Shown: one piece after another, positions 8,574 to 21,284 of the stretch
How positions within the stretch are numbered: position 1 is the stretch's first letter
How the letters are laid out: each line of letters starts with the position of its first letter
From: a virus
Virus record (IMG/VR): IMGVR_UViG_3300025141_000924
Location: 1-21,342 of that record
Reading direction: 5' to 3' (one strand)
Length of the DNA: 21,342 nucleotides
The notes under the pieces: generated by a model
What the model saw: the letters and a program-made list of their open reading frames with translations, nothing else
Told to the model about the DNA's origin: nothing
Database searches by the model: none
Program-made: the position numbers and the translations under genes

Positions 8574-11500
8574 TTGGCAACTAATAAGGACTGTATTAGT
8601 CAACATCACAGCACTCACGCCCCAGCCGTCGGCACCCCCGGCACTGCGGACATGTTTTATACTGATCCGCATGAAGCCGCACCATCAACAGGAGCGTCTC
8701 ACTGGCTAGCCATGCAAGGTACACCCTGCAGTGTCGCTGGTACCCACGGCGCCGACACCCTCGCCAAGCTGATCGAGATGAATGGCGCCATAAATGACAA
8801 CTTTAACCACCTCTTCAAGCAGATATCAACCTCGGACTGGAATACACTGGATACAGGCAGAACACACGGTTCCATGGGGACAATTGCTAAAGGCGGCCGA
8901 GATGGTATGATAGCCTTTTTCACTGCCGGCAAGAATATTAATGATGCCGCCCGCCAATCCCGTATTATTGGCTACCAAAACCCCGAAGGTGGTTCACCTG
9001 CGGGCATCTCGGGTAAAGGTGCACCAGTGGATTTTCAGATGAGATACGGCCAGAACTTTAACGGTGGTCCTTTGGGACAGGCAGACCCGATCTCGGCGCC
9101 AGCTGGAACGTTTGCCCCCGGTGGTGCCCCCATTTTCCATACGAGCAAGCCCGTCACTGACAGTGGCCATCGATACGCGCGCACCGACGGAGTGCTTTCC
9201 TCTCTTAAATACACGTGTGATCTATCTGCCGCCCAAGGATTTTTACATTATATCCCCTATAGTACTGCACCGAAGCCATGGCGATTCGAGACGCTACAAA
9301 CTAACATGGCGTGGTTGAGTTATAAGACACCTCACCGCCAGTGCTTATGTATCTTAAACAACTCTTATTGGACATACGCATTTACGCTGTGGAATGAGTT
9401 CATTTATAATTTGGCGTACGCAAAGGAATCGCGCGACAGCGCCGGCGCCATGAGCGCGGCAATGCGAGACGTTTTGGACAATGCTATGGGTCTAGACGAT
9501 GGCGACCCCGCCGCAATCGCCGCACTGAATCATTGGATGGGGATGAGAGGTCGAATGTCCCGGCGCGCCCGTGCCCGCACGGAGCGCATTATAGGGCTGT
9601 ATGAGAAGGCGGGTTACCGCGAGCAGTGCTATTTGTCTGCAAAAATCTTTCCTCTTGCGAACCACAAAAAAATTGTAATTGATGGTCGACAAGGAAAACG
9701 CCTCCCTTATCTGCCTCAACTTAGAACGTATATGGGAGCGGCCGGACTCAACGATACTTTTGATCCCCTCGGTAACACCACAAATCGAGATTATTACAGC
9801 GGGTCGGCGGATGCCGAGATGCCCGGGCAAGCCAGAGGCCTCGACAAAGCACCGGGCGTGACCTCCTCGGATACCTCGTGGTTAGATTTTATATCAGAAG
9901 GAGAAGTCGCCGGCGACCGAAGCGATGAATTTGCCTTTGGTTATAATGGCAACGCTTGTATCCCGGTGGATGTGCCGGATGACCAAGGTGCATTTGGATT
10001 TATAAATTTATTAACTACTCATGCCGATCAATTTTTTCTAGATAATATCACGCCCGCCCAAGAATCAACGCTCCAACCACAAATTCAAATCTATAAAACG
10101 GTACTCGGGGAGCCTGATCCTTCGCGTGCACAGCACACTAATGCGGCCCATAGCCAATATAACAACGGTAGTTCTAACCAACCTGAAACTGAAATTCCGA
10201 TTGTTTTTAACACCTTTAGTAGAGCAAGCGAAATAGCTGACTTTCTAAGTACTAGCGGTGAAGCATCCGGCCGGCGCGGATTCGGAGCTGGAATTAAAAG
10301 TTTTACTTTCACATACGATGGTTCTAACCCTTTTGCGGCGAAGAAAAGTATTAAAGCTCAGTTAAAGATTTTCGCTAATGATTTTGCAGAGCTTGGAAAG
10401 ATACGTAGTGGAGGCCCGGGTCAACCTACTTACCGTTATTTGGATCTGGCACTTAAGACCGGTGGTTCCGTGATGGATGGAGTGGTTGGAGCCTCCGCCG
10501 GGGCATTGGGCCCGGAAGGCGTACGTGGAGGAGGGATAGGCACAGCCGGCGAAGGAGCATGTGTGAGTCCTCGACAGGGGGATGTGGCACAACGAGAAGC
10601 TCCGGGCGGGGGCACGATTGACTTAGCTAATGATCCCATTGAAAAATTAAGATTTAAGATCCGCGCGGTGGTAGGAATTTCCCCACCCCCCACTACGCGC
10701 ACTGTGAAACCCCTTGGTGCAACGTACAACTTCGTCCACGATAGGGATCCTCGCACTCTATCACTGGAGGTCGCCCAGGGAGGCAGTGTCAATTTTTATG
10801 ACCCGTATAATTTTGGAGGGACGTACGTCCCTAATACTGACGACTATGCATCGGTCCGGCGCCCAGCCGAAAGCTGGGGTGTGGGCCAGCTGAGGCAGTA
10901 CGACCTCCAAACGAATGTCCCAAACGTGCGGCTAGGCTACACGGACCGTACGGTGGATTGGCGCGAAAGTAGGGGTTGGACCACGGCCCGTCCCAACACT
11001 GAAGTTGCCAGCTTCTATGAGATGCGCGGTACCACCGGTTATGAGGGCTCCGTCGACGAGTACGGCGGACTCGACGAGAATGCGGCGTGGAGATATTTCG
11101 TGTCTAAAGGCGATAATATCAGCGGTAATACCGACGAGAGCGGAGACTATACTGGAACATATCGTTTAGACGGTGGCAATGAGATACAGGATGCGCTTGA
11201 GAACTCTTTCACGACACTTACTTTGACCCCCACTACCCATTCTTTTGAGGTTGATCAAGATGGTCGCGTCGTGATGACTATTAATTATTTAGCCTATGTA
11301 GAAGATTTCTTCGATTCGCCTTCCTTTAATATCTTTATGGATCCTATTCTCTCACAACGCCGTATATTTCGACGTCTTCAATTTTCTAAATTGCGCGCCC
11401 TATGCGATAGCGAGACTCTGGAGAATATGAAAGAGGAGGAAGCGGATCAGGTTGAAAAAGATAAAATCCATAGTCTGCAAACTATTTTGAGGCGTCTCTA

Positions 11501-13793
11501 TGAAGCTAAGCGGGTGAGATATGTCAAAATGTCTTATGCGGAGCTTCGTAGTTTTCAAACTAGTGGGCCTTATGGTGTTAATGCAGCGGGAAACCGTACG
11601 GGAGGAGTAAGAATCTTTATGCCCTCCTCCCAGCGGGGCCCTGCGCGGGAAATGTCCTCCATTCGCGCTCACCTCACCTCAACCCAAGGGAGCGACCCGA
11701 GCGACGGTCAAACCCGGCAGATTTTAGCTCGGACCGCGAATGATATGGAAAAAGAGTATCTAAGTTATTTCTATGTTAGCGACTTGGTAGATGTAATACT
11801 CGAAGGTATTGAAGAAACTCTACAGACGCTTCCTACCGTATTAGACGAATGGAAAAATAAAGACGATTATCCTGCTTTTATTAGCGATTGCGACGTCGAA
11901 TATGAAAAAATTAGACTCGAAAAATTTAGGACTCAGTTTAAGAGATTTAGAGTAGTTTTAGGACCATTAGAGGTTGTCAACCCGTCCGATTCAGCCCATA
12001 GTAAAGTAATCAATTTGGGTCAATTGCCTGTTTCTATCAAATATTTTTCGGAATGGTTGGCGGATCAAATTTTGTCCAAGGACGAGGCTTCGATGCCTCT
12101 ACCTAATTTTCTTAATGCGTTCTTCAACTTGCTCATCCGCAACTTTCTAAATGATGATTCATGTTTTAAGACCCCTGCGTCGCAAAAGATCCGTATGAAT
12201 CAAAGTGTGCTAACGAGTTATAGTGATTATCAGATTAAACTGGACGAGACCTCTAATTTTATAGGTGATCAGGCGCTCTTAGCTAGCGGTGATCACCCCG
12301 TGGACAGCCTTACTTTGGCGACGTACGCCCAGAATTTGTTAAGCCAAGACCGGACAGTCGGTGACTTCTACAACGGCATCATGGGCGCCATGGCCAGCGC
12401 TGTTTGGGGGTCGGCTGAGACCAGAGATATCTCAACCGCGCGCTTCTCGACGGTCCTGTTCGAAGATCTGGATTCCGCAGGTCGAGATGTAATGTTAGAT
12501 TCGGACATGTCCCGAGTGTCTCATTTTAGCCCCCTCCGGATCGTAGCCGGCACAACCTACCCCATATTTGTAGGCGGTACTGGAAATGGAGTTAGCAATC
12601 CAATTCTTTCGCTTTCAGGGCATAATACCCGCGGCGGACAGGAAGGTCACCGGGTAGGCGGCCGCCATGAGCGTCCACGGGGTGGAGGTCGACGCGATTA
12701 CTCCGCAGTACAGGCCCTCCAAAGATTTATGCACATCAATGCTAGCGTCATGGATCCAACTGCGATCGGCCGCGGCGGGCTCCCAGGCGGTTCTGACCCC
12801 GGCTCACGATTCGTAGATGTCTTTGGTCGTATAGTTAACCCAGATCTGGAAAGCGAATACGCAGGACTTACTCCCGTTTATAATCCTAGTGACTTAACCG
12901 CTATCACATCACCTGCCGGCGCGCCCGGGCGCAGAGCTGAAACTACCGGCTACACCGCCCGCGCGGGTACCTGGGATCGTAAAGCGAACATAGCGGAGGG
13001 GTCGATGAACTACTTTTCCGAAGACGTTGTTTACACCATGACTAGTCAGAATACGACTCTTGCCGATACTACGTACAACTTCCTTGTTTATTGCGCAGGA
13101 AGAGCGCTCCCCTTGGACTCTCTCCGCCAATTACATGAGACCGATGCCACCGGCCGCGCGACTACTTCAAACTGGAAAGCGCTTAAGCGCGCTCACAACA
13201 GCTATCGTATTCCTCACTATACTTTAGGCAGACAACGCGGCGTAGTGAAAGAAATTAAGCTTACTAAAACTAATTCTCCGGGTTTGCAAGAAGTGCGCTT
13301 TGAACAAGATGGGTATGATGGTTTGCGACAATTGCGCGAAGTTTATGATGTACAAGTGACTCTGCTGTGTAACCCTAAAATATATCCAGGAATTTACATA
13401 TATATTGATCCGGATGGCTTTTTCCCCGATCGCACCTTAGCTCGCGACGTTATTCCCACGCCCGAGGGGACATTCGAACACCGCGATTATAATTTGAGCC
13501 AGTTTGGAATCGGTGGCTATTATATGGTAATTCGATCCGAAAACAAGCTTCAGGAAGGTACTTTACAGACGATCCTGACAGCTAAATGGGTGGCCTCTAT
13601 TGAACCCGATAGTGACAATCCCGCAACGAGCACTAGTCGTACGGAGGGTTCACTAACTACTCAAGAGCAATCGATGTGCGCCCGTGCCCGCCGCTCCGAG
13701 TTGTTAAAAATTGTTGATTTAGGTGAAACAGCACGTGCCGCCGACGCACGCCCACTCGAATCCCCGACTGCTGAATTAACAACTGGAGGATAA
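8574..13793 (+). CDS. Giant virion/baseplate protein (1739 residues)
   Basis: The largest gene here. I recognise it as a member of the large, poorly described structural proteins next to gp53 in environmental myophages, not as a named T4 protein. Visible parts: a Gly/Ala/His-rich N-terminal region (about 1-200); an aromatic-rich part with CILNNSYWTYAF; a conserved core near 470-640 with LQPQIQIYKTV, EIPIVFNTFSRASEI, GFGAGIKSFTFTYDG and LKIFANDF; a segment SFEVDQDGRVVMTINYLAY near 890; a charged helix near 940-985; a long AT-rich helical part (about 1060-1230); and a C-terminal domain (about 1550-1690) with GLRQLREVYDVQVTLLCNP, YPGIYIYIDP and FGIGGYYMV, resembling a beta-rich domain common at the end of such proteins. 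Probable role: baseplate hub or wedge scaffold. No lytic enzyme motif was seen. Start is TTG. Confidence 0.7.
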   Translation: MATNKDCISQHHSTHAPAVGTPGTADMFYTDPHEAAPSTGASHWLAMQGTPCSVAGTHGADTLAKLIEMNGAINDNFNHLFKQISTSDWNTLDTGRTHGSMGTIAKGGRDGMIAFFTAGKNINDAARQSRIIGYQNPEGGSPAGISGKGAPVDFQMRYGQNFNGGPLGQADPISAPAGTFAPGGAPIFHTSKPVTDSGHRYARTDGVLSSLKYTCDLSAAQGFLHYIPYSTAPKPWRFETLQTNMAWLSYKTPHRQCLCILNNSYWTYAFTLWNEFIYNLAYAKESRDSAGAMSAAMRDVLDNAMGLDDGDPAAIAALNHWMGMRGRMSRRARARTERIIGLYEKAGYREQCYLSAKIFPLANHKKIVIDGRQGKRLPYLPQLRTYMGAAGLNDTFDPLGNTTNRDYYSGSADAEMPGQARGLDKAPGVTSSDTSWLDFISEGEVAGDRSDEFAFGYNGNACIPVDVPDDQGAFGFINLLTTHADQFFLDNITPAQESTLQPQIQIYKTVLGEPDPSRAQHTNAAHSQYNNGSSNQPETEIPIVFNTFSRASEIADFLSTSGEASGRRGFGAGIKSFTFTYDGSNPFAAKKSIKAQLKIFANDFAELGKIRSGGPGQPTYRYLDLALKTGGSVMDGVVGASAGALGPEGVRGGGIGTAGEGACVSPRQGDVAQREAPGGGTIDLANDPIEKLRFKIRAVVGISPPPTTRTVKPLGATYNFVHDRDPRTLSLEVAQGGSVNFYDPYNFGGTYVPNTDDYASVRRPAESWGVGQLRQYDLQTNVPNVRLGYTDRTVDWRESRGWTTARPNTEVASFYEMRGTTGYEGSVDEYGGLDENAAWRYFVSKGDNISGNTDESGDYTGTYRLDGGNEIQDALENSFTTLTLTPTTHSFEVDQDGRVVMTINYLAYVEDFFDSPSFNIFMDPILSQRRIFRRLQFSKLRALCDSETLENMKEEEADQVEKDKIHSLQTILRRLYEAKRVRYVKMSYAELRSFQTSGPYGVNAAGNRTGGVRIFMPSSQRGPAREMSSIRAHLTSTQGSDPSDGQTRQILARTANDMEKEYLSYFYVSDLVDVILEGIEETLQTLPTVLDEWKNKDDYPAFISDCDVEYEKIRLEKFRTQFKRFRVVLGPLEVVNPSDSAHSKVINLGQLPVSIKYFSEWLADQILSKDEASMPLPNFLNAFFNLLIRNFLNDDSCFKTPASQKIRMNQSVLTSYSDYQIKLDETSNFIGDQALLASGDHPVDSLTLATYAQNLLSQDRTVGDFYNGIMGAMASAVWGSAETRDISTARFSTVLFEDLDSAGRDVMLDSDMSRVSHFSPLRIVAGTTYPIFVGGTGNGVSNPILSLSGHNTRGGQEGHRVGGRHERPRGGGRRDYSAVQALQRFMHINASVMDPTAIGRGGLPGGSDPGSRFVDVFGRIVNPDLESEYAGLTPVYNPSDLTAITSPAGAPGRRAETTGYTARAGTWDRKANIAEGSMNYFSEDVVYTMTSQNTTLADTTYNFLVYCAGRALPLDSLRQLHETDATGRATTSNWKALKRAHNSYRIPHYTLGRQRGVVKEIKLTKTNSPGLQEVRFEQDGYDGLRQLREVYDVQVTLLCNPKIYPGIYIYIDPDGFFPDRTLARDVIPTPEGTFEHRDYNLSQFGIGGYYMVIRSENKLQEGTLQTILTAKWVASIEPDSDNPATSTSRTEGSLTTQEQSMCARARRSELLKIVDLGETARAADARPLESPTAELTTGG

Positions 13794-13796
13794 ATT

Positions 13797-15095
13797 ATGT
13801 CATCATTCTTAGTAGGAGATAAAGGAGAAACAGTACGGGACCTGTTCTATATGCGTAGTGCGTATACTGTCATTACATCCGCACCCCTATCATCCCCGGT
13901 GACGGATTTTTATATTGCTGAAAAACAACTGTATGGGAAAGTTAATTTTGATTATATACCTATACTCCCTAAAGGCCCACACTCGTCAGTTCCTTTTAGA
14001 GCCTATAAAGCTTTTAATGCCCGATATCAGAAGAATACTGTCACACCCTTTCAGGCTCCAGCTTATGTGGTGGATGCCTTTGAAGCCATGGCAGGCGCCT
14101 TTGACCGCGCCGTTATTTCAGGGCAGATCCCCCGGGGCCACAAATATTTAAGTCAACTAAAGGTTCATGACGCACACCACGATTTTATACCACGTTATAC
14201 TGAGTACTTACGAAATTATATAATCGGCACCGCCAGCGCCCTCCACAAGATGAAGGCACCCATAAAGAATATGACTCAATTAGTGCAGTTTTATGAGGCG
14301 TATATGGTATCGGGGTTATCCACTGCCTATCCACTCACATTATCTTCATTTATTAAAGGTCCCCAGTGTTCTCGTCTTCATACGGGATTGAGTATTGAAA
14401 TAGCCGATCTCACCAGTTCTAATGACCAAGAGAAATACACACACTTTCTGTCTGCACCGGCATGGCAATTTTATGTTAATGCTGCCCGCGAATATGGATT
14501 TATGATCGACCGGCATATTCCATGGCGCCTGGTAGCGGACATTGGTTCGGAGGCTTTTTTACAATATAGCAAGAAGTATGGAATGAACTCTACCGGGAAG
14601 ATCCTTGATCTCGCTTTCCGTCCGGCCCACGAACTCGGGTTTATAAAATTCATGCAGTTCTTTGTCATGTTATATGAAAACACAGTTACTTCTTCCTTAG
14701 AAGTTCCTCAATTGTGTCCGGACGGCAAGATTCGTTATAGGTCAGTAAAGCCAAAAAAATATACCCTTATGAAGATGCTTGAAGAAATTCCGGAAGGGAA
14801 TTTTTTGCGCTTGTACATGAACGTTCGTATGCAAGAAGAAGTAACTCCCTTCACTCCAGATCAGCAGCATATCTTGATGCGGGAATGTATGGGGCTTTAT
14901 GAGATAGCCTCCGATCGATCTTTAACCTTAGAAGTTTTTGCAAGAATTGTTAATAAAACATTTGACTATGCCGGCTCATTAAGTTATATTATAGAAAGAA
15001 GAAAACAGTTGGAGTCTGCAAACACCACAAAAGGCGTGGGGGGTGCGGCCTCTTCCTTTAATAATTCATCCCCTATGGATATTACCTCCGGCTAA
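13797..15095 (+). CDS. Protein of unknown function, probably structural
   Basis: 432 residues, not assigned to a named family. It begins three bases after the giant gene, with a GGAGGA site inside that gene's end and ATG at 13797. The N-terminal part contains VITSAPLSSPVTDFYIAEKQL and then YGKVNFDYIPILPKG. The middle is helical and aromatic, with AYPLTLSSFIKGP, FYVNAAREYGFMIDRHIPWRL and FIKFMQFFVMLYENT. The C-terminal 25 residues are Ser/Gly/Asn-rich and likely loose. No membrane anchor, metal site or nucleotide-binding loop was seen. The tight spacing behind a baseplate gene suggests a virion or baseplate part, but its place directly before the polymerase leaves other roles open. Confidence 0.7.
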   Translation: MSSFLVGDKGETVRDLFYMRSAYTVITSAPLSSPVTDFYIAEKQLYGKVNFDYIPILPKGPHSSVPFRAYKAFNARYQKNTVTPFQAPAYVVDAFEAMAGAFDRAVISGQIPRGHKYLSQLKVHDAHHDFIPRYTEYLRNYIIGTASALHKMKAPIKNMTQLVQFYEAYMVSGLSTAYPLTLSSFIKGPQCSRLHTGLSIEIADLTSSNDQEKYTHFLSAPAWQFYVNAAREYGFMIDRHIPWRLVADIGSEAFLQYSKKYGMNSTGKILDLAFRPAHELGFIKFMQFFVMLYENTVTSSLEVPQLCPDGKIRYRSVKPKKYTLMKMLEEIPEGNFLRLYMNVRMQEEVTPFTPDQQHILMRECMGLYEIASDRSLTLEVFARIVNKTFDYAGSLSYIIERRKQLESANTTKGVGGAASSFNNSSPMDITSG

Positions 15096-15103: not shown

Positions 15104-16300
15104 TTGATTTTCCAGACCATTGATGATAAAAGTGAATGTATAGGAATCTATACAGACGGCAAATTATTTTACGAAGATTTTCCCGATGAGTTAACACGCA
15201 CGTGGCGTTATACTGGTTCTCTTACAAACCCAGAGATAGAATATGGACGGTTGTGGAGCAATGGACTCACTCTAGAGGAAGCATGCCCAGAGAATTTGAG
15301 AGCATCTTTCAAAAAATCTCAAAAGCGCCTTTCGGCTTATCTAAAATCTTTCCAGCTGGGTAAGATTGACATGCGAGAACATTGCATTTTTGACTTAGTG
15401 CCGGAAGATTTTCTCATGCAATTCTGTGATATTAAGAACAAAATTACAGCGCATGTGTTTCAAACTCATACGCGGCCCACTAACTATGATCATCTTGCTG
15501 CCATTGATCGTCTGCTATATAAAATTAAATATCAGCATTTAAACCTTAATAATGAAAACTGCAGGGAGCTATATTATTCCTCTCGTTCGCGTACTAAGTC
15601 CACAGAGCTTATAAACAACTATCGTTATATTGATTACAACCTCTTTGGGACCGTTACAGGGCGCCTGACGACGTGCAAAAAGTCTTTTCCTATACTTACT
15701 GTCAAAAAAGAATTCCGGAAGCTCCTGAAGCCTCACAACGAGTGGTTCTTATCTCTCGATTATAATGCTGCCGAAGCGCGCACATTTTTATCCTTAGCTG
15801 GCCATTCGCAGCCTCTTGAAGATATTCATGTTTGGAACATGAAGAATATTTACCACGACAGCGGAGACACTGGCACCCGAGAGGAAGCCAAGATTAGATT
15901 CTTTGCATGGCTCTACGATCCGAATTCGGACGATATAAACATTGAGAATATCTACGATAAGCAAAAAGTACTTGACCTTTTCTATAAAGATGGGTATATT
16001 AATACAGTCTTTGGGCGTTCTATTTCAGTTACGCCCCAGAAAGCCCTTAATTATTTGATTCAGAGTACCACCGCTGATCTCGTGCTGGAGCGCGCCGTCG
16101 CCATCGATAAATTTTTAGACAATCATAAATCTTTCGTTTCTCATATTGTTCATGATGAAATTGTTATTGATCTGGCCGACGAGGAACGCACCTTGGTACC
16201 TCAGCTTAAAGAACTGTTTAGCACAAACCGTCTCGGAACCTTTGAAGTAAATTTATCATGTGGTTTTAACTATTATGATTTGAAAGAGTTAAAACTATGA
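15104..16300 (+). CDS. Short family A DNA polymerase, polymerase domain only
   Basis: Synthesises DNA; core motifs of the Pol I family are complete. TGRL lies at residues 185-188. Motif A is DYNAAEAR (219-226), with D219 and E224 matching E. coli D705 and E710. The O helix keeps R259, K263, F267 and Y271 at the spacing of R754, K758, F762 and Y766. The Q motif is IQSTTAD (319-325). Motif C is HDE (350-352). The 398 residues include no 3'-5' exonuclease or 5' nuclease domain. Between the O helix and GYINTVFGR only about 25 residues remain against about 55 in Pol I, so the fingers are reduced. The first 180 residues fit a thumb plus an N-terminal part I do not recognise. T4 itself uses a family B enzyme. 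Some distant T4-like phages (as I recall, Rhodothermus phage RM378) carry polymerase and exonuclease as separate genes. Start is TTG; the end overlaps the next gene by ATGA. Confidence 0.88.
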   Translation: MIFQTIDDKSECIGIYTDGKLFYEDFPDELTRTWRYTGSLTNPEIEYGRLWSNGLTLEEACPENLRASFKKSQKRLSAYLKSFQLGKIDMREHCIFDLVPEDFLMQFCDIKNKITAHVFQTHTRPTNYDHLAAIDRLLYKIKYQHLNLNNENCRELYYSSRSRTKSTELINNYRYIDYNLFGTVTGRLTTCKKSFPILTVKKEFRKLLKPHNEWFLSLDYNAAEARTFLSLAGHSQPLEDIHVWNMKNIYHDSGDTGTREEAKIRFFAWLYDPNSDDINIENIYDKQKVLDLFYKDGYINTVFGRSISVTPQKALNYLIQSTTADLVLERAVAIDKFLDNHKSFVSHIVHDEIVIDLADEERTLVPQLKELFSTNRLGTFEVNLSCGFNYYDLKELKL

Positions 16301-17160
16301 TTTCAATTATAGGACTCGGCTCGACCGCGTCTGCCGTCGCGACCAAGTTTGAAGGTATCGATAACTATCAAGTATTTTATCTCAATGATAAGATAAAAAA
16401 GCCGGACAGCACCCATTTTAAAATAGAAAGGTATGCCACTCCCGAAGAATATGAGCAAAATATCCCCAATGTAAAAAAGTTCTTTAAACCTGTTACGGAA
16501 CGAGTTCAATTTTTTATCACTGGTGCCTCTATGAGTTCCAATTATTGTTTGGGGATCTTAGAACAGATTAAAGATAAAGAAGTGGATGTTTTTTATATCA
16601 AGCCAGATACAGAACTCTTGACAGGCGTTCCCAAATTAATGGAAAATATGGTTTTCGGAGTATTGCAGGAATATGCGCGCAGCGGCTTATTGCGATGTGT
16701 CACTATTATTTCGAATTCTAATTTAGAAAATACCCTAGCTGAAATTCCTATTAAAACTTACTACGATACGCTAAATAATTCTATTTTTTCAACTGTACAT
16801 TATTTAAATTATTTTGAGTTTACGGATCCTGAAATCGGCCAGGTGTCAAAACCATCAGATATCAACCGTATTCGTACGATTGGTATGCTGAATGTTAAAA
16901 ATTTAAAAGAAAAATGGCTTTTTGACCTTGACATGGAGCGTGACCTGTGTTATTATATTTGTATAAATGAGAACAGATTAGCAACCGAGGGCGGTTTGCA
17001 TAGGAGAATTGTAGATATGCTGAAGAAAAAACCAAAGAATGCATTTCGAAAAATCTCTTATGCAATTTACGAGACACCTCTAGAAGACTTTGGGTTTTGC
17101 GTTGCCCACACTAACGCAGTACAAACACAAAAAACTCTTGACTCTTTCGAGACAGAGTGA
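16297..17160 (+). CDS. Candidate divergent FtsZ/tubulin-fold protein
   Basis: 287 residues, coupled to the polymerase gene by an ATGA overlap. The family is not certain. The order of segments follows FtsZ: an N-terminal strand and loop ISIIGLGSTASAVATKF (residues 2-18), like the FtsZ first nucleotide loop; then VQFFITGASMSSNYCLGIL (70-88) where FtsZ has its GGGTGTG signature; VDVFYIKPD (96-104) like the VAVVTKPF strand; helix and strand at 111-147 ending TIISNSNLEN, like TLIVIPNDKLL; YYDTLNNSIFSTVHYL (155-170); and PSDINRIRTIG (186-196) like VDFADVRTV. The signature loop is degenerate, and the second catalytic Asp of FtsZ corresponds to R191, so GTPase activity is doubtful. The C-terminal 90 residues are basic and could bind partners. 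An unrelated Rossmann-type protein is the main alternative. Confidence 0.5.
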   Translation: MISIIGLGSTASAVATKFEGIDNYQVFYLNDKIKKPDSTHFKIERYATPEEYEQNIPNVKKFFKPVTERVQFFITGASMSSNYCLGILEQIKDKEVDVFYIKPDTELLTGVPKLMENMVFGVLQEYARSGLLRCVTIISNSNLENTLAEIPIKTYYDTLNNSIFSTVHYLNYFEFTDPEIGQVSKPSDINRIRTIGMLNVKNLKEKWLFDLDMERDLCYYICINENRLATEGGLHRRIVDMLKKKPKNAFRKISYAIYETPLEDFGFCVAHTNAVQTQKTLDSFETE

Positions 17161-17192: not shown

Positions 17193-17960
17193 ATGTCAAT
17201 CGATATGGAGCTTATGCGCCGCAAGCTCGCAACTTTGCGCGGTGAAACTAAAAGTGATTCTACCTCTATTTGGTTCAGACCAGATGAAGGAGACACGGAT
17301 ATTCGGATCATCCCGACAAATGATGGTGATCCGTTGAAGGAAATGTTCTTTCACTATAACGTTGGAGATCATAAGGGCGGTGTCCTTTGTCCCAAGCGCA
17401 ATTATGGAGAACAGTGTCCCATTTGCGAATTCGCTTCCCAGCTATGGCGAGAAGGAAGCGACAACAACGACGAGGAGAGCAAAAAGCTTGCAAAGTCACT
17501 CTTTGTGCGCACCCGCTATTTCAGCCCCGTAGTTGTTCGTGGTCGAGAAGATGAAGGGATTAAGGTATACGGCTACGGTAAGACCGCGTACGAACTCCTT
17601 CTCGGCTACATTCTTGATCCTGAGTACGGTGACGTGACGGATATTGAGGAGGGTACTGATATTACCCTCACGTATACGAAGCCCACCAAGCCAGGAGCAT
17701 ACCCCCAAACAAGTCTGAAGATGCGTCGAAACACCTCTCCTCTATTGAGTGATGTGGAAGCGACACCCGCCCTCCTTGATCGCATGCCAGATTTCGATAC
17801 GCTCTTTGAGCGTTTGAGTTCTGCGCAAGTCGACGCAATTCTTGATGAACAACTGGCCGGCGATGGTAGTGCCGAGAGCCGATCATCGGAAACCACTAAG
17901 TATGCTGGCACGCAAACTAGTGAAGTAGACCGCGCCTTCAATGAACTGATGAGCGGTTAG
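17193..17960 (+). CDS. gp32: Single-stranded DNA binding protein (gp32-like)
   Basis: Coats single-stranded DNA during replication and recombination and recruits partner proteins. The 255 residues are somewhat shorter than T4 gp32 (301). The N-terminal arm (MELMRRKLATLRG) is basic, as needed for cooperative binding. A zinc site is visible: H54, C66, C75 and C78, in nearly the spacing of T4 H64, C77, C87 and C90. The core follows with aromatic residues likely to stack on bases (WFRP, RYFSPVVVR, YGYGKTAYELL). The tail is acidic and Ser-rich and ends VDRAFNELMSG, the usual ending of T4-like gp32 that contacts the replication machinery. It has its own promoter, an AAAGGAGAAA site and a terminator behind it, so it is probably made at high level and independently. 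Confidence 0.92.
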   Translation: MSIDMELMRRKLATLRGETKSDSTSIWFRPDEGDTDIRIIPTNDGDPLKEMFFHYNVGDHKGGVLCPKRNYGEQCPICEFASQLWREGSDNNDEESKKLAKSLFVRTRYFSPVVVRGREDEGIKVYGYGKTAYELLLGYILDPEYGDVTDIEEGTDITLTYTKPTKPGAYPQTSLKMRRNTSPLLSDVEATPALLDRMPDFDTLFERLSSAQVDAILDEQLAGDGSAESRSSETTKYAGTQTSEVDRAFNELMSG

Positions 17961-18146: not shown

Positions 18147-19256
18147 ATGTCGACCCAACTCAAAACAGTCCCCCAACAGGCTTATATTGTTGGAACACCC
18201 ATCCGACCAGGGTTCAATGGTCAGGGACAAATCGATCTACACGATTATGCAGGAATGGCACCCCCCACGTTTGAGGGTTGCACTTTTTCTCACTTTACGT
18301 TTCTTGATTTGACTACGGTTAATATTGATACTGAAAGCTTTGCTAACCTCGGAATTCGTGAAGAATTTGAAGGAGATGATGGCAATCGTATCGACGAACT
18401 TGAAGTCTCATTTGAGAACAACGGGTTTGAAACTGTTGCGTGGCCCCCATCAATTGATGATCTTGGTGGCTTCATCGATGGTCGTGGACGTACCACGGGC
18501 GCCCTAAATCGCAGTGAGCGATGGATGCCGGTTGCAGTGTATAACCGTGTTGATTTTTCGGTTTCAAGTACTGTTACCAACGGAATCAAGGGTAACCTCG
18601 GAGGACGCCCACAGCGTAGTGCTTCGTTTCGTGACATTGTTAATGGAGCAGTTCACTTGGTCAATGAAGGTGAGCTTAAGCCAACAGTTAACGATGTTAA
18701 CAACTGGTTGAAGAAGCGTCTTGAATTGTGGAGATTCTTCAAGGCTGATTTGATCACGAAAATGCAGCAAGCTATTGTTGAAGAAAGCACGCGTGATGAA
18801 TCGTTGATTCTGCGCAAGAAGACTAGTTCGTGGCACGCGTGGATTAAGCGCAACGTTGGACTTGACGAGAAGGCTGGTGATTACGTATTGGTAAATGCGT
18901 CTTCCTCCTCGTATCAGACGTATATTCAACGTCTGTGGTGCGAGAGCATCCTTCCGGCTATCATCGACGGTTCGGATCCGGTAGATGTGATCTTCTATAC
19001 TAGTCACTATCGACCTTCAAAGGCTCGGGATGGGCTGCAAAAGTCCATTGAAAAGCTGGACCAACTGTACGACATGTCATTTAGCCTTGTCAAGAGTCAC
19101 CTCAAGAGTTCGGGTATTGATCTCGATGCAGTCTTGGCTGCTACAGGTACTCAACTTAACAGCGATAAGCCTTTCAATATCATTGGAGCATGTCCGCAGA
19201 TTGTTAGCGATCATGAATTTGAAAGCGGCAAGCTTATTGATGTGACCAGCTACTGA
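18147..19256 (+). CDS. ParB/sulfiredoxin-fold protein
   Basis: 369 residues. Residues about 50-135 look like a ParB-type domain: LTTVNID, IDELEVSFENNGFE (82-95) as the search-and-switch helix, then GFIDGRGRTTGAL (108-120) in place of the usual DG-R-R motif, and ERWMPVAVY (124-132). In bacteria such domains bind or hydrolyse nucleotides, and in phages they are often found next to methyltransferases. The C-terminal 200 residues are helical and include PTVNDVNNWLKKRLELW, a basic RKKTSSWHAWIKRN part and a VDVIFYTSH strand that I cannot place; no other enzyme motif is visible. The ATG at 18147 has an AAAGGAGAAA site. It is first in an operon with a strong promoter and overlaps the next gene (TGATG). 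A role with the methyltransferase in DNA modification, takeover of host DNA or genome upkeep is inference. Confidence 0.65.
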   Translation: MSTQLKTVPQQAYIVGTPIRPGFNGQGQIDLHDYAGMAPPTFEGCTFSHFTFLDLTTVNIDTESFANLGIREEFEGDDGNRIDELEVSFENNGFETVAWPPSIDDLGGFIDGRGRTTGALNRSERWMPVAVYNRVDFSVSSTVTNGIKGNLGGRPQRSASFRDIVNGAVHLVNEGELKPTVNDVNNWLKKRLELWRFFKADLITKMQQAIVEESTRDESLILRKKTSSWHAWIKRNVGLDEKAGDYVLVNASSSSYQTYIQRLWCESILPAIIDGSDPVDVIFYTSHYRPSKARDGLQKSIEKLDQLYDMSFSLVKSHLKSSGIDLDAVLAATGTQLNSDKPFNIIGACPQIVSDHEFESGKLIDVTSY

Positions 19257-20125
19257 TGAAGACTCCGTTACGATATCCCGGCGGCAAAAGTCGTGCTGTG
19301 AACACGTTAATGGACTACATCCCTGATGATTGTGGGGAGCTTTGCTCCCCCTTTCTCGGGGGTGGTTCGTTTGAGCTAGCTTTGGCAGCGAAGGGCGTAA
19401 AGATACACGGATACGATGCTTTTAAACCAATCGTATGGTTCTGGCAGGCACTACTAAAAGATCCTGCGAGATTAGCTCAATTGGCCGATGCGACCAAGAC
19501 CCGAAGACCGCGCAAATACGTATATCAAGGTAAAGAATGTAAAGCCCGCGGCTTGCTAAAGAAAGACTTTGAGCGATTCCGTGACGAGATCCGGTTTGCA
19601 TTGAAGATGAAGCACCCATTTACTTTTGACTCGGCTGCTAAAATATATGCCATTAACCGGAGTAGTTTTTCGGGAGCTACATTTGCTGGCGGTTTTTCCG
19701 AGAGAGCTTCTTATGCGCGATTCACAGATAGCCAAATTGAGGCAGTTAGAAACTTTAAGGTAGATAATTTTACGGTAAAGCATGCTGACTTTAAAGACTC
19801 AATGAAAAAGCATGATTGTCATTTCTACCTTGATCCTCCGTATTTCCTCTCAGGTGCAAGAAGCAAGCTGTATGGAGACGACGGAGACATGCACGAGTTC
19901 TTCCCCCACCTTGCCTTATTTAGCGAGCTAAGAAAAAGAGAGAACTGGATTTTATCGTATAATGATTGTGCTGAGATTAGAGAATTGTATCGAGATTATC
20001 AGATACATGAGGCCCAGTGGACTTACGGGATGAATAAATCAAAAAAATCTTCAGAAATAATTATTACGTGCTTGCCCCAGTGCAAGACATATGTTACAAT
20101 TGAAAACAAACAAGGAGAAGAGTAA
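19256..20125 (+). CDS. dam: DNA adenine N6-methyltransferase, Dam/D12 class
   Basis: Transfers a methyl group from S-adenosylmethionine to adenine in DNA. Motifs in order: LRYPGGKSR (residues 5-13, motif X), PFLGGGSFE (32-40, motif I, cofactor binding), INRSSFSGATFAGGFS (133-148), the catalytic DPPY (193-196, motif IV), SYND (234-237) and a C-terminal KSSEIIITCLP. The order X, I, IV is that of the alpha class to which Dam and T4 Dam belong. The length of 289 is close to Dam (278). By family, GATC would be the likely target; GATC is common in this window by eye, so the phage does not avoid it, but the target cannot be read from motifs. The start overlaps the preceding stop by one base (TGATG), giving coupled translation and little need for its own ribosome binding site. 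Confidence 0.93.
   Translation: MKTPLRYPGGKSRAVNTLMDYIPDDCGELCSPFLGGGSFELALAAKGVKIHGYDAFKPIVWFWQALLKDPARLAQLADATKTRRPRKYVYQGKECKARGLLKKDFERFRDEIRFALKMKHPFTFDSAAKIYAINRSSFSGATFAGGFSERASYARFTDSQIEAVRNFKVDNFTVKHADFKDSMKKHDCHFYLDPPYFLSGARSKLYGDDGDMHEFFPHLALFSELRKRENWILSYNDCAEIRELYRDYQIHEAQWTYGMNKSKKSSEIIITCLPQCKTYVTIENKQGEE
20072..20100 (+). promoter_or_regulatory. Probable internal promoter for the recombinase gene
   Basis: TTGCCC (20072-20077), a 17-base spacer and TACAAT (20095-20100), 9 of 12 consensus positions, with extended -10 TGT at 20092-20094. It lies inside the end of the methyltransferase gene; start of transcription would be near 20107, 20 bases before the ATG at 20127. Its architecture matches the two stronger promoters upstream. 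Confidence 0.5.
20112..20116 (+). promoter_or_regulatory. Ribosome binding site choosing the ATG at 20127
   Basis: AGGAG ends ten bases before the ATG at 20127. An in-frame ATG at 20091 would add 12 residues but lacks such a site, would overlap the methyltransferase gene, and would precede the promoter's expected start point. Confidence 0.65.
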
Positions 20126-20126
20126 C

Positions 20127-21284
20127 ATGGCCAAGAAACCCAAAACCAAAGCAGGTCGAGTGTCTATGCATGACTTGATGACCCTGGTAAATAAAAAAGC
20201 AGGGCGGAATGTTGCCCATAATCTAACCGGCGATAACCCCACCTCCGTTAAAGAATGGATCCCCACAGGCTCTCGTTGGCTTGATTCGATTATATGTAAG
20301 GGTCGAGTCGCCGGCATTCCTGTAGGAAAGGTGACGGAGATTGCTGGACTTGAATCAACAGGTAAGTCATACATGGCTGCACAAATAGCCGCTAACGCTC
20401 AGAAAATGGGCAAGCTTATCGTTTATTTTGATTCTGAGTCTGCTATCGACCCTTCATTTTTAGAGAGAACAGGGTGCGATTTAGAGCGTCTTATGTATGT
20501 TCAAGCTAGCTCCGTGGAGTTTGTGCTTGAAACTATCGAAGAATTGCTCGGAGCAACCGATGAACAATTGGTTTTTATCTGGGACTCATTGGCATTTACG
20601 CCTTCAGTCTCTGACGTAGAGGGAGACTTTAATCCTCAATCATCGATGGCAGTGAAGGCGAGAATCTTAGCGAAGGGAATGTCGAAGCTGACTATTCCTT
20701 TGGCAGATAAAAAGGCCACCCTCATTGTACTCAATCAGTTGAAAACGAACATTCCCCAGGGCCCCAATGCACGCATTGTTGCCATGACCACACCTTACAT
20801 TACGCCCGGCGGAAAGGCGATGCACTATTCGTATTCGTTGAGGATTTGGCTGACAGGACGAAAGGCAAAGTCTTCTTTTGTTACTGATGATAAAGGTTTC
20901 CGAATTGGTTCTGAGGTTAAAGTTAAGCTAGAGAAATCTCGTTTCGGAACTCAAGGAAGATCGTGTGCGTTCCGTATTCTATGGGGTACCGAAGAGATTG
21001 GTATCCGTGACGAAGAAAGCTGGTTTGATGCCATTAAAAGCTCGGAGTACCTTACTTCAGCCGGCGCATGGTACACGCTAAAGATGCCTGCGGGATACAC
21101 TAAGAAATTCCAACCTTCTAAGTGGACAGAATTAATTACAACTGACGATGAATTTAAAGCGAATGTCATACGTCTGATGAATGAAGAAGTTGTTCAGAAG
21201 TTTGATAAACGCGAAGGTTCCGCCGATGCATTTTATTCAGAGCCGGATGACTTATCACAAAAAGTGGCCCACCACCCCGTATAG
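20127..21284 (+). CDS. uvsX: RecA/UvsX-like recombinase
   Basis: Forms ATP-dependent filaments on single-stranded DNA and carries out strand exchange for repair and for recombination-dependent replication, with the gp32-like protein as partner. Walker A is GLESTGKS (residues 74-81). The strand YFDSESAID (100-108) carries the acidic residue matching RecA E96. Walker B is LVFIWDS (148-154). NQLKTN (203-208) matches the RecA glutamine switch, and TPGGKAMHYSYSLRIWL (226-242) the conserved DNA-binding loop exit. Length is 385 residues, near T4 UvsX (391). The N-terminal 25 residues are basic. The C-terminal 80 residues are charged and less conserved. It starts one base after the methyltransferase stop and is likely made both from the operon and from a promoter at 20072-20100. 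Confidence 0.92.
   Translation: MAKKPKTKAGRVSMHDLMTLVNKKAGRNVAHNLTGDNPTSVKEWIPTGSRWLDSIICKGRVAGIPVGKVTEIAGLESTGKSYMAAQIAANAQKMGKLIVYFDSESAIDPSFLERTGCDLERLMYVQASSVEFVLETIEELLGATDEQLVFIWDSLAFTPSVSDVEGDFNPQSSMAVKARILAKGMSKLTIPLADKKATLIVLNQLKTNIPQGPNARIVAMTTPYITPGGKAMHYSYSLRIWLTGRKAKSSFVTDDKGFRIGSEVKVKLEKSRFGTQGRSCAFRILWGTEEIGIRDEESWFDAIKSSEYLTSAGAWYTLKMPAGYTKKFQPSKWTELITTDDEFKANVIRLMNEEVVQKFDKREGSADAFYSEPDDLSQKVAHHPV

Follow-up and report, generated by a model that had tools for sequence, protein, structure and literature searches.

Here we describe tubB, a gene carried by a 21,342-nucleotide stretch of viral DNA (IMG/VR virus record IMGVR_UViG_3300025141_000924, positions 1 to 21,342; this whole stretch is hereafter called the window). 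Its product, TubB, is strongly predicted from structural models to have the tubulin/FtsZ fold, and the start codon of tubB overlaps the end of the preceding gene, which encodes a family-A DNA polymerase. Proteins of the tubulin superfamily are known as filament-forming GTPases, which hydrolyse guanosine triphosphate (GTP). The present analysis suggests that TubB is a tubulin turned partner of DNA synthesis: we assign a probability of roughly one half to the reading in which it has lost the GTP-hydrolysis machinery and acts as a dedicated partner subunit of the upstream polymerase. This reading builds on computed results, namely the predicted fold, the coupling, the history shared with the polymerase and the loss of the G-box and of helix H8; from these we infer that TubB may form a complex with the polymerase, hold nucleotide without hydrolysing it and take part in repair-type synthesis.

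Two template-free AlphaFold2 models carry the fold assignment. The model of the window protein, calculated with an alignment of 35 relatives, has a predicted local distance difference test score (pLDDT) of 85.7 and a predicted template modelling score (pTM) of 0.86, while that of a relative 48% identical to it, calculated with 73 sequences, reaches 90.8 and 0.89. When the window model was compared with the PDB using Foldseek, the top 50 matches were all FtsZ or TubZ (best E 7.8e-13, probability 1.00, template modelling score (TM) to the query at most 0.70), and the first 50 matches of the relative's model were likewise FtsZ and TubZ only (best E 5.6e-12, TM at most 0.71). In a comparison with predicted structures of viral proteins, the best matches to the window model are entries named FtsZ or tubulin (A0A6J5RW92, E 2.9e-11, TM 0.71). 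The predicted chain follows the two-domain order of tubulins over its full length, as FtsZ does, with a GTPase-type domain, a long central helix H7 and a beta/alpha activation-type domain. A first-pass annotation of the window had proposed this fold from short segments in FtsZ order, all of which are present (MISIIGLGSTASAVATKF, residues 1-18; ITGASMSSN, 74-82; IKPD, 101-104; IISNSNLEN, 137-145; SDINRIRT, 187-194), and the two confident models with their FtsZ/TubZ-only matches bear the proposal out.

Sequence comparison gave a different picture. The Pfam Tubulin family matches none of 35 TubB members and nothing in the window, TubB has no Pfam or PHROG match, and phmmer and hmmsearch against the PDB returned nothing significant. 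HHalign yielded non-significant probabilities of 0.6-0.8% to FtsZ and 5.5-13% to PhuZ, so that the profile search which the annotation had recommended reached 13% at most. Deepening the alignment to 73 members brought no gain, probably because the family is shallow (effective number of sequences 2.3). As the resemblance is strong in predicted structure and non-significant by sequence, the fold is strongly predicted and unconfirmed by sequence or experiment; the tubulin claim would stay unproven without structure prediction. If TubB were no tubulin but a dinucleotide-binding protein of the Rossmann type whose C-terminal domain is unrelated, this would account for the weak Pfam F420/NADP oxidoreductase matches that 8 of the 35 members show (best E 0.0018) and for a single-sequence proC control that scores level with FtsZ or PhuZ in HHalign. 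However, the predicted two-domain order fits FtsZ from end to end, nucleotide-sugar epimerase and oxidoreductase structures match far worse (E about 1e-3, TM 0.3-0.4), and the PDB top 50 is free of non-tubulins for both models. An identity as a Rossmann oxidoreductase was therefore rejected on fold, the plain Rossmann fold that the annotation had allowed for was not seen, and we hold this explanation to be barely credible.

The relatives of the window record come from marine viral contigs, in which a first search found 58 tubB loci at 57-87% identity and a further scan 582 confirmed matches; a clade that has diverged further, with about 48% identity to the window protein, was found as well. 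A non-redundant set at less than 85% identity holds 73 members, across which G8, G76, P103, D104, N140, E144 and N160 are invariant. No relative was found in cultured or named phages (tblastn, 50,697 phage records) or in cellular genomes (84,980 genomes). Thus tubB is a conserved and widespread marine viral gene, encoded by hundreds of uncultured marine phages. The related phage genomes measure about 190-195 kb; one of 195 kb (G032) also encodes a chaperonin of the Cpn60/GroEL type and a B12-dependent ribonucleotide reductase (L245:16381-17961 and L246:12292-14259).

The residues that are retained lie on the guanine side of the nucleotide site. Escherichia coli FtsZ has N165 as its T6 Asn and F182...N186 at the start of helix H7. 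TubB has N140 and Y/F156...N160 at matching spacing, HHalign aligns these positions with those of FtsZ, 73/73 members have both Asn, and position 156 is Tyr or Phe throughout; the window model has a helix at residues 152-175 (H7). The T1-like loop retains G8. At the place of the G-box, where both models have a beta strand followed by a helix, TubB reads G[S/A]SxSSN with G76 as sole invariant residue, and the tubulin signature [SAG]GGTG[SAT]G of the T4 loop occurs in 0/207 TubB, which upholds the degenerate G-box reported by the annotation. Even a form of the signature relaxed at its last position is found in 0/207 TubB, versus 82/82 for a second, canonical tubulin of the same phages (TubA, described below). 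Downstream of H7, helices H8 and H9 are absent from both TubB models, and no acid is invariant between H7 and the next long strand among the 73 members (position 177 is mostly Glu or Asp, Ser or Asn in some). The C-terminal helix H11 and tail are absent too: in the models the last strand (265-272 or 267-274) is followed by no more than a short disordered tail, and ordered structure stops at about residue 278 of 287.

The models thus point to a T7-H8 catalytic element that is wholly remodelled. The annotation had set SDINRIRT opposite VDFADVRT of FtsZ and deduced a single exchange of a catalytic Asp for Arg. Since H8 and H9 are lacking and no acid after H7 is invariant, neither the pairing nor the swap is supported; the helix H8 that bears the motif is missing, and INRIRT runs into a beta strand (residues 192-198 in the window model, 193-199 in the relative). 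Because the guanine-side residues are kept, TubB probably holds a guanine nucleotide; having lost the G-box and the T7-H8 element, it probably does so without GTP hydrolysis. The earlier suggestion that the protein binds but does not hydrolyse nucleotide agrees on both counts with the conserved residues and the models, from which it is deduced. By prediction TubB has the tubulin fold, but neither its sequence nor its catalytic elements match those of known families.

The junction with the polymerase is strictly maintained. The 4-base overlap between polymerase stop and tubB start is identical in 207/207 loci carrying both genes, confirming the pairing with the family-A polymerase (15104-16300) noted in the annotation, and the junctions read ATGA in 187, GTGA in 15 and TTGA in 2 cases (n=204). 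As controls, the gene upstream and the polymerase overlap at 68 of 177 junctions, and tubB and the downstream gene for a single-stranded DNA-binding protein (SSB) at 0/203. Furthermore, the partial correlation of pairwise distances in the main clade is 0.75 for polymerase and TubB, compared with -0.07 for TubB and SSB. The polymerase and TubB thus share an evolutionary history beyond what other genes explain.

Such a place fits poorly with a host-takeover gene. FtsZ inhibition is a common phage strategy, and an FtsZ-like fold stripped of its hydrolysis machinery would suit a decoy that caps or poisons the division filaments of the host and stops division in infection. Yet host-takeover genes are usually variable and early, and one that never leaves its place in the replication/recombination module and is strictly coupled to a polymerase would be unexpected. 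The sequence match to FtsZ is also negligible, and we consider a decoy very improbable.

The phages that encode TubB also encode a second tubulin. A Pfam Tubulin match elsewhere in 6 of 16 large contigs of the relatives led to TubA, a protein of about 378 residues with an acidic N-terminal tail of 60 residues. TubA is FtsZ-like by sequence (Pfam Tubulin 33.9 bits, phmmer E 2.5e-10), and 82/82 members have the G-box GGGGTGS as well as SFDxxD at T7, with both aspartates. The two tubulins occur together in 13 of the 37 records examined, 38-43 kb apart on one strand with TubA upstream, and, judged by the positions in the 37 records, each record with a single tubulin stops short of the site at which the other would be expected; the window does not extend far enough to include TubA. 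The genome G032, one of the 13, would fit this spacing only as a circular sequence. A canonical FtsZ-like GTPase therefore accompanies TubB in every record long enough for both. In cultured phages the only match to TubA, a weak one, is in Bacillus phage G. At locus L152 the TubA start overlaps by ATGA the stop of an SbcCD-like gene (Mre11/Rad50 fusion).

Two filament-based explanations have to be weighed here. In one, TubB would position or segregate phage DNA as an independent filament-forming tubulin of the PhuZ/TubZ type with unusual catalytic residues, and operon economy alone would explain why it follows the polymerase. The fold would allow this, and the described phage tubulins, TubZ of phage c-st and PhuZ of jumbo phages, are filament formers (PMC7950403, PMC12908238). 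But TubB lacks the G-box, the T7-H8 catalytic element and the C-terminal H11, and these phages already have a canonical tubulin, which makes this explanation decidedly unlikely; membership in the PhuZ/TubZ family, which the annotation had suggested, finds no support by sequence either.

In the other, TubB would partner TubA, co-assembling with its filaments or capping them, much as in alpha/beta-tubulin or BtubA/B with one subunit non-hydrolysing. The co-translated polymerase, and with it the phage DNA being replicated, would so be tethered to a cytoskeleton of TubA. A TubA with intact G-box and T7 aspartates is indeed found in every large record covering its place (13 records, no exception among 37), and phage tubulins position phage DNA (PMC12908238). 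However, obligate co-polymers should co-evolve, and the two tubulins do not: over 13 genomes, distances correlate with r 0.65 for TubB and polymerase versus r 0.24 for TubA and TubB, and rates differ widely, TubA identities being mostly 85-99% (except G003) where those of TubB are 43-88%. Moreover, the two genes lie some 40 kb apart and hence are not co-translated. The best case is G003, which has G011 as its nearest neighbour in both TubB and polymerase, although its TubA is an outlier (about 61% to all others). Because TubB tracks the polymerase and not TubA, we favour a polymerase partner over a filament partner; the weak co-evolution of the tubulins leaves co-polymerisation as a rival only, and an unlikely one.

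The coupled polymerase is probably not the main replicase, because related phages also have a family-C DNA polymerase III alpha (Pol III alpha), presumably in that role and recognised in 10 of 14 large records. Motifs A, B and C of the coupled enzyme are conserved (107 aligned members), and Pfam DNA_pol_A is above the cut-off in the window and in 16/16 large records; no exonuclease domain was recognised in it with Pfam and PHROG. A DnaB-type helicase is found in these genomes too, as is a 5'-3' exonuclease with a gene of its own near RecA. Given this exonuclease and Pol III alpha, Pol I functions seem divided among separate genes, with the coupled enzyme as the polymerase part. The bacterial beta clamp (PF02767) was not found in 14 large records, where T4-type and other clamps were not searched for; as the clamp search covered PF02767 only, no weight is placed on the idea of TubB as a sliding-clamp substitute for the main replicase.

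The mechanism that we propose for the polymerase and TubB starts from the overlap of stop and start, because of which ribosomes terminating on the polymerase would re-initiate on TubB and the two proteins would appear together in a fixed ratio, forming a complex. TubB would keep a guanine nucleotide bound in a structural or regulatory capacity, and the pair would work in gap filling, repair or recombination-dependent replication, beside the phage SSB and RecA. In its most specific form, which we advance more tentatively, TubB is a guanine-nucleotide-bound, non-polymerising pseudo-tubulin, an accessory subunit that stabilises, regulates or tethers the phage Pol I-like polymerase, with the separate canonical tubulin making filaments.

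Several points weigh against the proposal of a polymerase partner. The fold is a prediction to which sequence methods add no confirmation, and the complex is deduced from coupling and co-evolution seen in gene sequences. Translational coupling is common in phages, and co-transfer of adjacent genes alone could produce a shared history; the SSB gene also adjoins tubB, yet its correlation with TubB is the -0.07 given above. Known phage tubulin functions are filament-based and TubB could still polymerise. Finally, Pol III alpha was not found in G035, which extends 16 kb downstream of tubB.

In the window (Table 1), a myovirus-type tail module is followed by a replication/recombination module, where a gene for a D12-class methyltransferase lies between those of the SSB and the RecA-like recombinase. 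The protein encoded upstream of the polymerase is fast evolving (median pairwise distance 0.64). In the region 18147-20125 lies a gene for a 369-residue protein that matches no family; its stop codon and the start codon of the D12-class adenine methyltransferase gene overlap. The former gene is found at 3 of 130 loci and the methyltransferase at 31 of 130, and the 369-residue protein may be a restriction partner or another accessory gene. In the tail region, a 1739-residue protein (8574-13793) has no recognised family.

Table 1. Positions of tubB, its sequence elements, its neighbours and related genes (window positions unless a contig locus is given; ORF, open reading frame)
Feature	Position	Strand	Evidence
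tubB (TubB), 287 residues, predicted tubulin/FtsZ fold, G-box and T7-H8 degenerate	16297..17160	+	ATG ORF, AlphaFold2 model, Foldseek, relative's model
ATGA overlap of polymerase stop and tubB start (translational coupling)	16297..16300	+	Sequence; kept in 207/207 loci
T1-like glycine loop GLGSTAS, residues 6-12, G8 invariant	16312..16332	+	Residue conservation
Place of tubulin G-box (T4), GASMSSN, residues 76-82, G76 alone invariant	16522..16542	+	Conservation, both models
N140, equivalent of FtsZ T6 Asn (E. coli N165), invariant	16714..16716	+	HHalign column, conservation
Aromatic-x3-Asn opening helix H7, Y156...N160, spacing as FtsZ F182...N186	16762..16776	+	HHalign column, conservation, model
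T7-H8 region, residues 176-198, remodelled	16822..16890	+	DSSP of both models, residue counts
Family-A DNA polymerase, 398 residues	15104..16300	+	Pfam DNA_pol_A 44.5 bits; PHROG DNA polymerase E 4e-19
Conserved 432-residue protein, upstream of polymerase	13797..15095	+	No family match; synteny 112/130 loci
gp32-like SSB, next gene downstream of tubB	17193..17960	+	Pfam gp32 62 bits; PHROG SSB E 7e-24
RecA/UvsX-like recombinase, same module	20091..21284	+	Pfam RecA 123 bits; synteny
TubA	L152:4464-5600 (G002); also G001, G003, G006, G007, G011, G017, G023, G027, G032, G034, G035, G037		
Family-C DNA polymerase III alpha and separate 5'-3' exonuclease of G032	L246:5801-9232 and L246:15739-16725		

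If the proposal is true, a cytoskeletal fold has been reused inside DNA metabolism, or DNA synthesis is physically linked to a phage cytoskeleton. With two very different tubulins in one phage genome, the division of labour is directly testable with few purified proteins; in the open-access literature we found such a pair nowhere described. Two distinct FtsZ/tubulin representatives are mentioned in a survey of jumbo phages, but none that is degenerate and joined to a polymerase (PMC7824862).

Among known systems, TubB resembles FtsZ in the fold predicted for its entire chain (TM of at most 0.70-0.71), its T6 Asn and the aromatic-x3-Asn spacing of H7, and differs in lacking the G-box GGGTGTG, the H8 catalytic aspartates, H9, the C-terminal tail and significant sequence similarity, and in being coupled to a DNA polymerase rather than to ftsA. 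With PhuZ and PhiKZ TubZ of nucleus-forming jumbo phages it shares a phage-encoded (here predicted) tubulin fold, and these are its best though weak HHalign partners (13%), but the C-terminal helix H11 of PhiKZ TubZ (PMC3678025) is missing in the TubB models. TubZ of Bacillus plasmids and phages is alike in predicted fold, with 2xka and 4ei7 among the top matches of the relative's model, whereas TubB lacks the catalytic loops and no partition genes were recognised beside it. TubA comes from the same phage genomes and superfamily and also has the aromatic-x3-Asn at H7; unlike TubB, it has the G-box, the T7 aspartates, an acidic N-terminal tail, high conservation and recognition by Pfam Tubulin. 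Family-A polymerases are known to adopt unrelated partners, thioredoxin in phage T7 and a tRNA-synthetase-like subunit in mitochondrial Pol gamma, and the idea of a polymerase partner is reasonable for that reason. By analogy, TubB would be another unrelated fold recruited by a family-A polymerase, one that differs from those of thioredoxin and the Pol gamma subunit.
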